64,000 nucleotides of DNA from Moorena sp. SIOASIH. Lineage in GTDB: Bacteria; Cyanobacteriota; Cyanobacteriia; Cyanobacteriales; Coleofasciculaceae. Below, piece after piece: positions 4,880 through 56,036 of the stretch (positions within the stretch are counted from its first letter, which is position 1; every line of letters begins with the position of its first letter). The notes under the pieces are model-generated. The model was not told the DNA's origin and made no database searches. It saw nothing but the letters and a program-made list of their open reading frames with translations. A program made the position numbers and the translations under genes. Location of the stretch: assembly GCF_010671925.1 (NCBI RefSeq), contig NZ_JAAHIH010000007.1, forward strand, positions 62,001 to 126,000. Reading direction: 5' to 3'.

Positions 4880-5413
4880 AGTGATTCAAAATGGTTAGTT
4901 AGCCGTAGCAATAGCTAGTGCCAATTGCTAATTAGGGATAGCTGCATCAGAATTGGCTTCGGGTTTGGGTAAATAGGAATTGGCTAAAGGGATTTCGGAC
5001 ACCCACTGGTATAGCGCTACGCGCAATGGCATTGGCAAGAGGCAAGAGGCAAAAGTTAACAGCGACAGCTTTTGCTGCCTGTATCAATGTCCTAAGCTGA
5101 ATGCGTAGTGCCATACATATAGGTATCGATGTGAGTTATCCATCCTTTGGCAATACAAATCCCCGACCGGGTTTCAATTTGTCTTAAAACCTTTCCCCAA
5201 TTAATTTGACCCAGCGATTTTATTGTCTTCCCCTTGACCTACTACTGTTCACCGGGAAAGTACCGAACTTACTGTGGCGCTGACTAGGGATTTTACATAG
5301 ACTTATCGAAAACTTTGCCTTTATAATAAATTACTGGCTTACGCCCCTTGAAAACTGCCCCAAACCCATCAGAGACTGGAGTTGTTCAGGCATGAGCATT
5401 TCAGAGGTGTTTT
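4880..5413. other. intergenic region between the repeat protein and glgC
   Basis: This 534-bp divergent intergenic region should hold the promoters of both flanking genes. It contains the 106-bp family B element at 5010-5115. A TATAAT hexamer at 5322-5327 could be the glgC -10 box, but no good -35 box sits 17 bp upstream. I see no ORF or structural RNA. Confidence 0.6.
5010..5115 (+). repeat. family B MITE-like element, copy 1 (106 bp)
   Basis: It begins TATAGCGCTACGC and ends GCGTAGTGCCATA, an imperfect 13-bp terminal inverted repeat. The reverse complement of 31163-31268 has the same length and about 11 mismatches by eye. It has no coding capacity. The TA at each end would fit insertion at TA, as for IS630/Tc1-type MITEs, but no transposase is present here to confirm this. 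Confidence 0.8.
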
Positions 5414-8116: not shown

Positions 8117-8282
8117 TATAGCAATTCTCATAGCTATGAGGTACACAATTTCGGGATTTTAGGGAACAGGGAACAGGGAACAGGGAACAGGGAACAGATA
8201 AGAGGGAATAGCGATGCGCTGCATCAAGACAGGGAATCAACGTCAAAGAAGACTGTACCTCATAACTGCGAGAAACGCTATA
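8117..8282 (+). repeat. family C MITE-like element with GGGAACA heptamer cargo
   Basis: A 166-bp unit bounded by 28-bp inverted ends: left TATAGCAATTCTC..ATGAGGTAC (8117-8144), right GTACCTCAT..GCGAGAAACGCTATA (8255-8282). Inside are five AGGGAAC-type heptamers (about 8161-8196) and a nested palindromic repeat, GCGATGCGCTGCATCAAGAC (8211-8230). It starts one base after the dnaJ-like stop codon, so it replaces that gene's natural 3' flank. Confidence 0.8.
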
Positions 8283-8299
8283 TATCTAGCAGTGCTCAA

Positions 8300-8380
8300 T
8301 GGGGCTAGGGACTTTCCTCCTGGGTTCATGGGAGTAGGGAGTAGGGAGTAGGCAGTAGGGGTAAGACAATTGAAGGTACC
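8300..8380. repeat. degenerate family C arm plus GGGAGTA array
   Basis: CAGTGCTCAATGGGGCTAGG..CCTCCTGGGTTCATGGGAG resembles the left interior of the other family C copies. It is followed by GGGAGTA/GGCAGTA heptamers and then GAAGGTACCTCAT near 8374, which resembles a right-arm piece. It is too decayed to give exact ends. Confidence 0.45.
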
Positions 8381-8926
8381 TCATAAGAGGGTGTCGATGG
8401 CATTTAGCAGTGTCTCTACTTCGGCATTTGAATTTAGGAAAGAAAATAGATGTTGAAAGCGGAGTTTTCCTAGCTGATCTAAAAGAAATTGGCCTGGTAG
8501 GGGAGCACCAAGTGCTTGACCAAGGTTATAGGCGCGAAAGGTTCTACAGTTGGGGTCGCTCAGAAGTGGCATTTGTAAACTGAGATCGTTAACTACTTGT
8601 TGACTTTGCCTGATATCTGTACTTGTAATCATTAACACCTCAACCCCTTTCTCAGTGAAACGTTGGTAGTTCTCATTGATGTTTTTGATGTGAGGGAAGC
8701 ACAGGGGACAGTAATGCTTTTCTGTGAAAATTCGGGTGAATGCCAAGATGACTGGTTGTTTGCCCTGATAATCGGATAATTTGGTCTGACGGTTATTGGT
8801 AATATCTGGTAGCTCAAAATCAGGTGTCCTTGCTCCGAGTTGTAGCGCGTTAGTTGCTGGTACAGGCACAAAATTGTGGAAGAAGCGCTGGTTGATTAAG
8901 CCACTAAAGTTCAGGTCTCTGAGCAT
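8381..8926 (-). CDS. AhpC/TSA-family redoxin (peroxiredoxin-like)
   Basis: A 181-aa thioredoxin-fold protein. GARTPDFELPDITN (about residues 31-44) and KLSDYQGKQPVILAFTR are the typical AhpC/TSA opening. The candidate peroxidatic site is Y-C73-P-L-C76, a CxxC arrangement unlike the TxxC of typical 2-Cys peroxiredoxins and closer to Bcp/PRX-like redoxins. It probably reduces hydroperoxides or acts as a disulfide redoxin in the cytoplasm; the substrate is unknown. It is transcribed toward the dnaJ-like gene and separated from it by decayed family C repeats. AGGAG lies about 13 bases before the ATG, a weak spacing. It is not obviously part of the polysaccharide cluster that lies upstream of it on the same strand. 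Confidence 0.8.
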   Translation of the reverse strand: MLRDLNFSGLINQRFFHNFVPVPATNALQLGARTPDFELPDITNNRQTKLSDYQGKQPVILAFTRIFTEKHYCPLCFPHIKNINENYQRFTEKGVEVLMITSTDIRQSQQVVNDLSLQMPLLSDPNCRTFRAYNLGQALGAPLPGQFLLDQLGKLRFQHLFSFLNSNAEVETLLNAIDTLL

Positions 8927-11382: not shown

Positions 11383-11479
11383 ATACAGCGTTACCATTGC
11401 TGGTGAGGTACACCTGAGTCTTAGAAGATAGGGGTTTCATTCCTGAATTTGTACCTCACGGGAGCTAGAAACGCTGTAT
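11383..11479 (+). repeat. family C MITE-like element, minimal 97-bp copy
   Basis: Inverted ends of 29 bp: ATACAGCGTT..GTGAGGTAC on the left and GTACCTCAC..AACGCTGTAT on the right, separated by about 39 bp with no heptamer array. The end sequences match the other family C copies in AGCG/AACGCT and GAGGTAC. It lies between the GT4 gene and the membrane-protein gene, so any transcript crossing it could form a long hairpin. Confidence 0.75.
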
Positions 11480-23755: not shown

Positions 23756-23934
23756 TATAACCGTTCTCAATTGATTGAGGTACCTCTTCCTGGGTTTTAG
23801 GGAGTCGGGAGTCGGGAGTCGGGAGTCGCGATGCAGGGCAGTCCCATGACCGCCCTGCATCAAGACAATCCGAGGATTTTTTGGTGTGCTGATAAATCAG
23901 TATTGGGTTTTATGATCTATTTGGAAATGCTATA
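23756..23934 (+). repeat. family C MITE-like element with GGGAGTC heptamers
   Basis: The left arm reads TATAACCGTTCTC..TTGAGGTAC (23756-23783). Four GGGAGTC heptamers and a nested palindrome GCGATGCAGGGC..GCCCTGCATCAAGAC (23828-23866) follow. The right arm is decayed but ends GGAAATGCTATA (to 23934). The boundaries on the right are approximate. Confidence 0.6.
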
Positions 23935-24888: not shown

Positions 24889-25119
24889 GTAAGTATTCAG
24901 CTATCACCTATCAGTTATCAGTTATCAGCTTTTGAATCAAACAAGTAAGCATTGGAATAATGCTGAGTGAAATCCCAGCGTCGTTCGCACAGCGTGGCCA
25001 TTCGCGTAGCGTGGCCAAAGGCCAAGGCCAAAGCCTGTGCCAAAAAGCACCTCAAGCAGCGTGAGCCTTTAGCTGACGGCTGACGGCTGACGGCTGACGG
25101 CTGACGGCTGAATGCTTAC
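24889..25119 (+). repeat. family A element, intact copy with exact 8-bp target duplication
   Basis: A 231-bp element starting GTAAGTATTCAGC and ending GGCTGAATGCTTAC, flanked by CTAGAGTC on both sides (24881-24888 and 25120-25127). The interior has CTATCAG/TTATCAG heptamers, an internal GTAAGCATT, a CACCTCAAGCAGCGTG stretch with GCGTGGCC palindromes, and five CTGACGG heptamers. No ORF is present. Confidence 0.85.
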
Positions 25120-25756: not shown

Positions 25757-25896
25757 TATAGCAGTTCTCAATTGGGTTAGGTACTTCCGTCCTGGGTTGC
25801 GCGGGAGTAGAGAGTAGGGAGTAGGAAGTAGGAATCCCCGCGCCCAAGGGGGTAATAAAATTGAATGGACTTCATCGGTATAATCAACGCTCTATA
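25757..25896 (+). repeat. degenerate family C element with GGGAGTA heptamers
   Basis: The left arm TATAGCAGTTCTCAATTGGG..AGGTAC (25757-25784) is clear and is followed by CCTGGGTT and GGGAGTAG/GGAAGTAG heptamers. The right arm, ending AACGCTCTATA at 25896, is only loosely matched. It lies within 100 bp of the AAA_35 gene start. Confidence 0.5.
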
Positions 25897-30817: not shown

Positions 30818-31383
30818 AGTATAAACTCTAAAGGATGAAGTGCTAAGAATCAAGGAGCAAGTGGGAAAGATCAAGGAGCAAATGGGAAGGATCAAGGATA
30901 AAGCCCCATCAAGTATGTCCTAATACTGGATACTTAGGTGCGCTTGACCCATTAAGAATTAAATTCGCACCTTCGGGTCGCACCTTCGGGAAACCCTGCT
31001 AATCAAAATCGTTATGACTATGATATAATTGTAAAGGTTCGTAAATAATCAATTAGATTTGATACCATTTGTGTGGTTGGTTACAGATAATGTCATGGTC
31101 TCAGCATGGACATGGGATATTGGGTAGATCATTTTCTTATCCATGAACTCCCTCTGAACATGTATAGCACTATGCATTAAAGTTAGGACATTGATACAAG
31201 CAGCAAAAGCTGTTTTAGTCAACTTTTGCCTCTTGCCTCTTGCCAATGCCATTGCGCGTAGCGCTATATGTATTTAGCCAGCACTTTGAGAAATAGTATG
31301 GGTAGCACGGTTTGAGGTGACCACCACTTGATCAGCAATCTGTAGCCAACTGACACCCTAGACACTTTAAGGAGCATAACTAT
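30818..31383. other. intergenic region holB to peroxiredoxin
   Basis: It contains AAGGATCAAGGAGCAA-type degenerate heptamers just after holB, a 30-bp dispersed repeat at 30938-30967 that recurs at 32282-32311, a TATAAT hexamer near 31023, and the second copy of the family B element at 31163-31268. No gene is seen. Confidence 0.6.
31163..31268 (-). repeat. family B MITE-like element, copy 2 (106 bp)
   Basis: In this orientation the ends are TATAGCACTATGC and GCGTAGCGCTATA. The reverse complement matches 5010-5115 over the full 106 bp. It lies about 115 bp upstream of the peroxiredoxin ATG and may overlap its promoter region. Confidence 0.8.
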
Positions 31384-32126: not shown

Positions 32127-32254
32127 AACAGCAGTTTTCAATTAGATGAGGTACTTTCGTCTTGGGTTAATGGGAGCAGGGATTAGCGATTAGCGATTAG
32201 CGATGAGGGAGTAGCGAAAATTTCCTGTACCTTACCAAAATGAGAATTGCTATA
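32127..32254 (+). repeat. family C MITE-like element with GCGATTA heptamers
   Basis: A 128-bp unit with a left arm ACAGCAGTTTTCA..GATGAGGTAC (32127-32154) and a right arm GTACCTTACC..GAGAATTGCTATA (32227-32254). The interior has TTGGGTTAATGGGAGCAGGG and three GCGATTA heptamers. It lies in the 503-bp gap between the peroxiredoxin gene and the next gene. The rest of that gap holds the dispersed repeat at 32282-32311. Confidence 0.72.
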
Positions 32255-54187: not shown

Positions 54188-54345
54188 TTTTAGGGAGTAG
54201 GGAGTAGGGAGTAGGGAGTAGGGAGTAGGGAATCGGGAGTAGGGAGTAGGGAGTAGGGAATCGGGAGTAGGGAGTAGGGAGTAGGGAGTAGGGAGTAGGG
54301 AATTGGGAGTAGGGAATCGGGAATCGGGAATCGGGAATTGGGAAA
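54188..54345 (+). repeat. GGGAGTA heptamer array
   Basis: More than twenty GGGAGTA/GGGAATC/GGGAATT heptamers in tandem. It is the longest array of this type in the window and follows a GATTTTAGGGAG stretch. Confidence 0.92.
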
Positions 54346-54395
54346 AAATCTTGTTTACCTGATTACTATGAGAACCGATAATTACCCTTAATAAA

Positions 54396-55824: not shown

Positions 55825-56036
55825 GTCGGGAACAGGGAACAGGGAACAGGGAATAGGGAACAGGGAACAGTGGACAAGAATTGACGGAAACACGATCAGA
55901 AAACTAATTTTGTAAGAGGTTTATTATACATATATACCATTTCTGGTACTTATGAGGTACAGACAATTTAATTCTACCTACTCCCTACTCCCTACTCCCT
56001 ACTCCCTACTCCCTACTCCCTACTCCCTTTCCTATA
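55825..56036. repeat. GGGAACA and CTCCCTA heptamer arrays flanking a family C-like arm
   Basis: GGGAACAGGGAACA units (55830-55870) start just after the MidA ATG. The sequence ATTTCTGGTACTTATGAGGTAC (about 55938-55960) resembles the family C left arm and is followed by CTCCCTA heptamers (55978-56030). The whole spacer between the MidA and hydrolase genes is repeat-derived. Confidence 0.65.

Follow-up and report, generated by a model that had tools for sequence, protein, structure and literature searches.

A probable IS630-type MITE family with an internal heptamer tract in a Moorena genome

The inverted-end copies in the window (64,000 nucleotides; C7:62001-126000 of the 9.94-Mb Moorena genome) very probably belong to an IS630-type, type-I MITE family, in which a GGGANNN sequence in the middle becomes a tandem heptamer tract, is carried along with the element and then grows or shrinks in place.

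Results

Copies in the window

The copy at 8117-8282 (+ strand; 166 bp, counting one TA of the target duplication at either end) has paired 28-bp inverted ends, the left at 8117-8144 (+) with 0 mismatches to TATAGCNNTTCTCANNNNNNTGAGGTAC and the right at 8255-8282 (-) with 1 mismatch. Its heptamer tract, (GGGAACA)5, occupies 8161-8197 (+; TRF and period-7 scan). It adjoins an older, decayed copy (8285-8392, +), which in a four-genome comparison was orthologous in the relatives G001, G002 and G003 and holds the tract (GGGAGTA)3 + GGCAGTA at 8330-8360 (+; TRF and sequence reading). This GGGAGTA-type tract has 4 units in this genome, 2 in G001 and 4 in G002, and is eroded in G003. Paired ends also bound a 95-bp copy without a heptamer tract (11384-11478, +) and a 128-bp copy (32127-32254, +) with a GCGATTA-type tract at 32181-32217 (+; TRF). 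A good left end is combined with a decayed right end at 23756-23934 (+), where the tract is (GGGAGTC)4 (23800-23828, +; TRF) and the G001 orthologue carries a different one, (GGGAGTA)n, and with a weak right end at 25757-25896 (+; read from the sequence and by end scan), with an imperfect GGGAGTA tract at 25803-25834 (+; sequence reading). A truncated, one-ended copy (C7:117933) has its end at 55933-55960 (+; end scan) and a (CCTACTC)n tract at 55977-56028 (-; TRF), which is longer than in the G001 orthologue. The long GGGAGTA/GGGAATC tract at 54191-54344 (+; TRF) is followed downstream by a right-end remnant (~54349-54385); its G001 orthologue is longer and consists of two alternating unit types. 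All five copies of the preliminary description were recovered, one with its limits refined from 11383-11479 to 11384-11478. Its division into three clear copies with two inverted ends and two weaker ones (23756-23934 and 25757-25896, with a good left and a decayed right end) was confirmed, as were the interiors that it gave (GGGAACA, none, GCGATTA, GGGAGTC and GGGAGTA).

Family size and pairing of the ends

The end pattern TATAGCNNTTCTCANNNNNNTGAGGTAC, searched genome-wide with up to 3 mismatches, gave 827 matches, compared with 1 for the reversed pattern that served as control. Neighbouring ends less than 420 bp apart in 800 kb formed 31 convergent, 1 divergent and 2 tandem pairs; these orientations and the control rule out chance pairing. 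Among 159 ends with 0 or 1 mismatch in 1.6 Mb (four contigs of the Moorena genome), a partner within 420 bp faced inward in 112 cases and outward in 12, so that the ends are not mostly partnerless, the outcome that was to have spoken against the family as first described. The element set from the same 1.6 Mb (n = 69) spans 89-442 bp with a median of 150, too small for a transposase gene. Although long reading frames make up 69% of the DNA, 61 of the 69 elements lie outside them. At least one family end was present in 254 of the 291 genomes of the host order.

Empty sites

Comparison with the three relatives showed that the 8117-8282 copy is absent in G001, G002 and G003, with a single TA at the site. 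The sequences on either side of this copy meet in G001 as GACTATGAT-TATATCTAGC, leaving GAT-TA-TATCTAGC, and the same empty site is seen in G002 and G003; the occupied site reads GAT-TA[TAGC...GCTA]TA-TATCTAGC. The single TA therefore defines the element as TAGC...GCTA with a TA on either side, and TA stands at both outer dinucleotides in 50 of the 69 elements. The site of C7:47596 is also cleanly empty with one TA (GCAAT-TA-GTAATTT). The third junction-mapped site, C7:16036, carries ~3 additional bases that may reflect an excision scar or a later change. TA duplication, proposed earlier as a check, is thus seen at two clean sites. For most of the 22 C7 elements, the G001 stretch compared offered no syntenic flanks. 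Eight further C4 elements, set against G001, yielded six sites, of which L227, L230 and L231 were informative, L229 partly so, and L228 and L232 uninformative.

IS630 insertion sequences with the same ends

We scanned DDE_3 transposase loci in relatives for family ends. Both ends were found at 25 of 30 loci across the host order, 1.02-1.18 kb apart and mostly 1.02-1.04 kb. At L136 (G003) a 1033-bp element is bounded by TATAGCGTTTCTAGGACTCATGAGGTAC and TATAGCAATTCTACGACTTGTGAGGTTC, and L153 and L154 hold similar insertion sequences. The transposase matches PF13358 (DDE_3; E 2e-38) and, above cut-off, the NCBIfam IS630 equivalog NF033545; its gene is spread over two frames, as is common among IS630 elements. 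This kind of transposase occurs in 161 of the 291 genomes of the order. The Moorena genome itself holds only fragments of the cognate transposase (C10, C3 and C4) and no intact copy, which may leave the family stranded. A further PF13358 match in this genome (L081, C5:237457) was rejected as the transposase source, the repeats that flank it being ATATCAAGTTCGGAT and not the family ends.

MITEs with heptamer tracts, both in G003 and in this genome, also bear the ends seen on the L136 insertion sequence, and a 311-bp element has an 18-unit tract between an insertion-sequence-like left end and the right end of a MITE. MITEs and insertion sequences have the ends alone in common; their interiors differ. 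As far as sequence can tell, the copies were probably moved by an IS630-type enzyme. The notion of a mobile shell is borne out by the empty TA sites in relatives and by the IS630 insertion sequences that share these ends. At L153 in G003, another IS630 element has a MITE with L136 ends on each side (L153:1150-1346 and L153:2471-2770), within 1.7 kb. The loci L111-L120 of G035/G110 hold a 106-bp MITE, free of heptamers and with the same end type, whose ends are near identical between loci.

Seat of the heptamer tract

The consensus of the 69 elements runs from one end through AAATTnTTGGGTTTTAGGGA-nnn-GGGA ... GGGAAAAAATCCTGTGTACCTCA to the other end. Conserved linkers, GGGTTTTAGGGA on one side and AAAAAATCCTGTGTACCTCA on the other, enclose the array, which is nearly always GG[GC]ANNN and in the same register; at least 2 such units are present in 59 of the 69 elements. 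Around 100 ends in 800 kb, an array lay inside in 63 and outside in 3 (chance ~4.5%), which rules out arrays within the ends as random neighbours. Of 122 arrays of other heptamer classes (AGCTATC, ACGGCTG and so on) in this genome, 1 lay inside the ends. Since the GGGANNN array sits in register between linkers and other classes are nearly absent, the interior is not free cargo, and the interchangeable cargo first proposed is only partly right. Linker and tract together, sought as GAGGTAC-N(8-14)-TTTTAGGGANNNGGGA, occur in 21 of the 291 genomes and in 14 genera; the reversed control gave 0 in every genome.

Recognisable ends are missing for 102 of the 148 GGGANNN arrays in 800 kb, about two thirds, and the MITE therefore need not be the sole source of such arrays. 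By eye, ~13 of 43 GGGANNN arrays on C7 had end remnants and ~30 had none. Some arrays without 28-bp ends (C7:117809, C7:135600, C4:366786 and C2:323110) adjoin the palindrome AGACTTCTTGCAGAAGT.

Change of the tract in 7-bp steps

The distant relative G284 holds eight TA-flanked copies with near-identical ends and linkers, whose lengths are 146, 153, 160 (five copies) and 167 bp. In G191, copies with nearly one left end hold 2, 3 and 6 units. The interiors of C2:168013 and C7:70117 (position 8117 of the window) are 98% identical save for 21 bp. Orthologous tracts measure 39/18, 50/36 and 87/66 bp in this genome and in G001, respectively, and their dominant units differ; together with the tract at 8330-8360, the array-length comparison between genomes gives differences of 21, 14, 21 and 14 bp. 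In most orthologous copies the tract differs in unit number and letters, and the ends and linkers are kept. These 7-bp steps, among young copies and among orthologues alike, uphold the array expansion in place that had been proposed. The L230 pair has an unchanged tract of two units. The L227 pair (194 versus 146 bp) differs by 48 bp, which is no multiple of 7, and has other changes as well. At L231, compared with C4:234340-234457, the flanks are more than 90% identical and the whole element is different between the genomes, a possible conversion of an entire MITE. Array replacement, the other route considered in the preliminary description, is suggested as a swap of the whole interior at this one orthologous site, and is not proved.

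Modular ends

The ends, taken at first to be constant, are so in their outer TATAGC and inner TGAGGTAC; a patch of ~8 bases varies, in matched left and right sets (3.94 versus 4.93 +/- 0.16 shuffled; 0 of 500 shuffles). C1:120193 and C2:76234 share 90-93% of the window-copy interior, yet their patches equal those of the G003 insertion sequence or differ from them by one base at most. Against C7:70117, the interior of C1:120193 is 93% alike and the ends agree at only 22/28 and 24/28 positions. In this small test 10 of 56 end positions diverged, versus 8 of 110 interior positions. The patches hint that shells may change their transposase partner, which we regard as a lead and not a result.

Discussion

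In the mechanism that we favour, an IS630-family (Tc1/mariner-like, DDE_3) transposase supplied in trans would cut the gene-less element at its ~27-bp imperfect inverted ends and insert it at TA, which would be duplicated. The trans-mobilisation by an IS630 transposase is inferred. The GGGANNN sequence in mid-element would turn into a tandem tract and be transported along with the element; the tract would then gain and lose 7-bp units and become uniform in place. Replication slippage is the presumed cause of the 7-bp steps, and the quadruplex-capable four-G-run sequence may aid it. The element would spread heptamer seeds, which the host's own 7-bp repeat instability would enlarge.

Other explanations were weighed against this one. 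Ready-made arrays might be swapped between shells by recombination (gene conversion), as interchangeable cassettes, and not grow in place. The L231 site, with its nearly identical flanks and entirely different element, would fit such a swap, as would C1:120193, whose interior resembles that of C7:70117 and whose ends match the insertion sequence of another species. We consider this unlikely: most orthologous tracts retain their ends and linkers while the units alone change, the young G284 copies are almost unchanged apart from length steps of 7 bp, and heptamers of other classes hardly occur inside the ends. Arrays could also arise by slippage anywhere, with the ends as incidental neighbours. 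The large share of GGGANNN arrays without recognisable ends, in 800 kb as well as by eye on C7, speaks for this reading, which is nevertheless very improbable in view of the excess of arrays inside the ends over those outside and of a register and linkers conserved across genera, with nothing in the reversed control.

A third explanation assigns a function to the tract: its G-rich strand would form predicted quadruplex switches that tune neighbouring genes, and the transposon would spread the arrays to some use. A four-G-run motif is present in 43 of the 69 elements, folding with quadruplex energies favours the quadruplex, and most elements lie outside long reading frames; for GGGAATC and GGGGATT, heptamers of a similar kind, folding in vitro is on record (PMC4692102). 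Against such switches stand the GGCAAGA, GCGATTA and tract-free elements and the erosion of tracts between species, as in G003 at 8285-8392, and we hold them to be quite improbable.

At least two further inverted-end families of this genome carry heptamer tracts. In the second family, GTAAGCATTCAGC ... GCTGAATGCTTAC, TCAGCNN heptamers start inside the ends; in 1.6 Mb it has 201 ends, with 53 convergent pairs and 1 divergent, and several copies are cleanly absent in G001. Copies lie at 25072-25111 of the window and at C7:10033-10213, C7:184673-184743 and C1:75497-75723. The third family, TATAGCGCTACGC ... GCGTAGTGCTATA, is ~108 bp long, often with GGCAAGA/GGCAAAA (GGCAANA) tracts, and occurs in high number in each of the four Moorena genomes; the window holds it at 5010-5118 and 31160-31268. 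A period of 7 that is common to unrelated inverted-end families points to a property of the host and not of any one element. The further proposal, that a sequence-independent host process with a 7-nt step amplifies seeds from mobile elements and that cyanobacterial heptamer repeats arise mainly in this way, is tentative and, in our judgement, rather doubtful. If it were true, transposition followed by step-7 amplification would produce new intergenic DNA.

Cyanobacteria have long been fingerprinted by their heptamer tandem repeats, whose origin is unsettled. The IS630-type MITE, which bears a seed tract and whose relatives span 14 or more genera of the order, supplies a source for part of them. 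In this system, how a bacterial minisatellite is born, spreads and grows can be traced site by site. The question why the period is 7 becomes testable, because unrelated inverted-end elements in one genome have the same period.

Each part of this picture was known before; the combination of MITE, internal heptamer and cyanobacterium, with an identified IS630 source and measured 7-bp steps, did not appear in the literature searched. We found no heptamer-bearing MITE of cyanobacteria or Moorena in the literature, a weak negative, as Elhai et al. 2008 and Zhou et al. 2008 lay outside the search. The nearest published likeness is to BrickBuilt and MITEPgRS (MITE464) of Porphyromonas gingivalis, MITEs with a central tandem repeat (PMC4596501). 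As in the Moorena family, the BrickBuilt repeat lies between a leader and a tail with inverted ends, and the ends are common to full-length insertion sequences (PMC4596501). BrickBuilt has 23- or 41-bp units, IS5-type ends, 10-20 copies and variable target duplications, whereas the Moorena family has 7-bp units, IS630-type ends, hundreds of copies and a TA duplication. Membership in BrickBuilt was rejected, as the Moorena elements have neither IS5-type ends nor 23-bp units. Among cyanobacteria, MITEs are known in Anabaena sp. 90 (PMC3542288), and the heptamer repeats on record include GGGGA(C/T)T of Nostoc PCC 7120 (PMC4692102) and TAACTGA (PMC4679880). Such STRR repeats resemble the Moorena tracts in being tandem, 7 bp in period, mostly intergenic and variable in unit number, some with four G-runs; they are described as free-standing (PMC4692102, PMC4679880), whereas in Moorena part of them sits within a transposon.

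The cyanobacterial IS630 family shares its ends and TA target with the Moorena MITE; its insertion sequences, of ~1.03 kb, have a DDE_3 transposase, unlike the window elements, which are without a transposase gene. Nezha, the Anabaena/Nostoc MITE of Zhou et al. 2008, reportedly makes a TA duplication and has an ISNpu3-like partner. It resembles the Moorena family as a cyanobacterial MITE, and it is not known to hold heptamer tracts. The small mobile repeats of Nostoc punctiforme (Elhai et al. 2008) are said to be tied to heptamer arrays and minitransposons, as 21-27 nt elements nested in heptamers. In the Moorena family, unlike these small dispersed repeats, the heptamers grow inside an inverted-end element.
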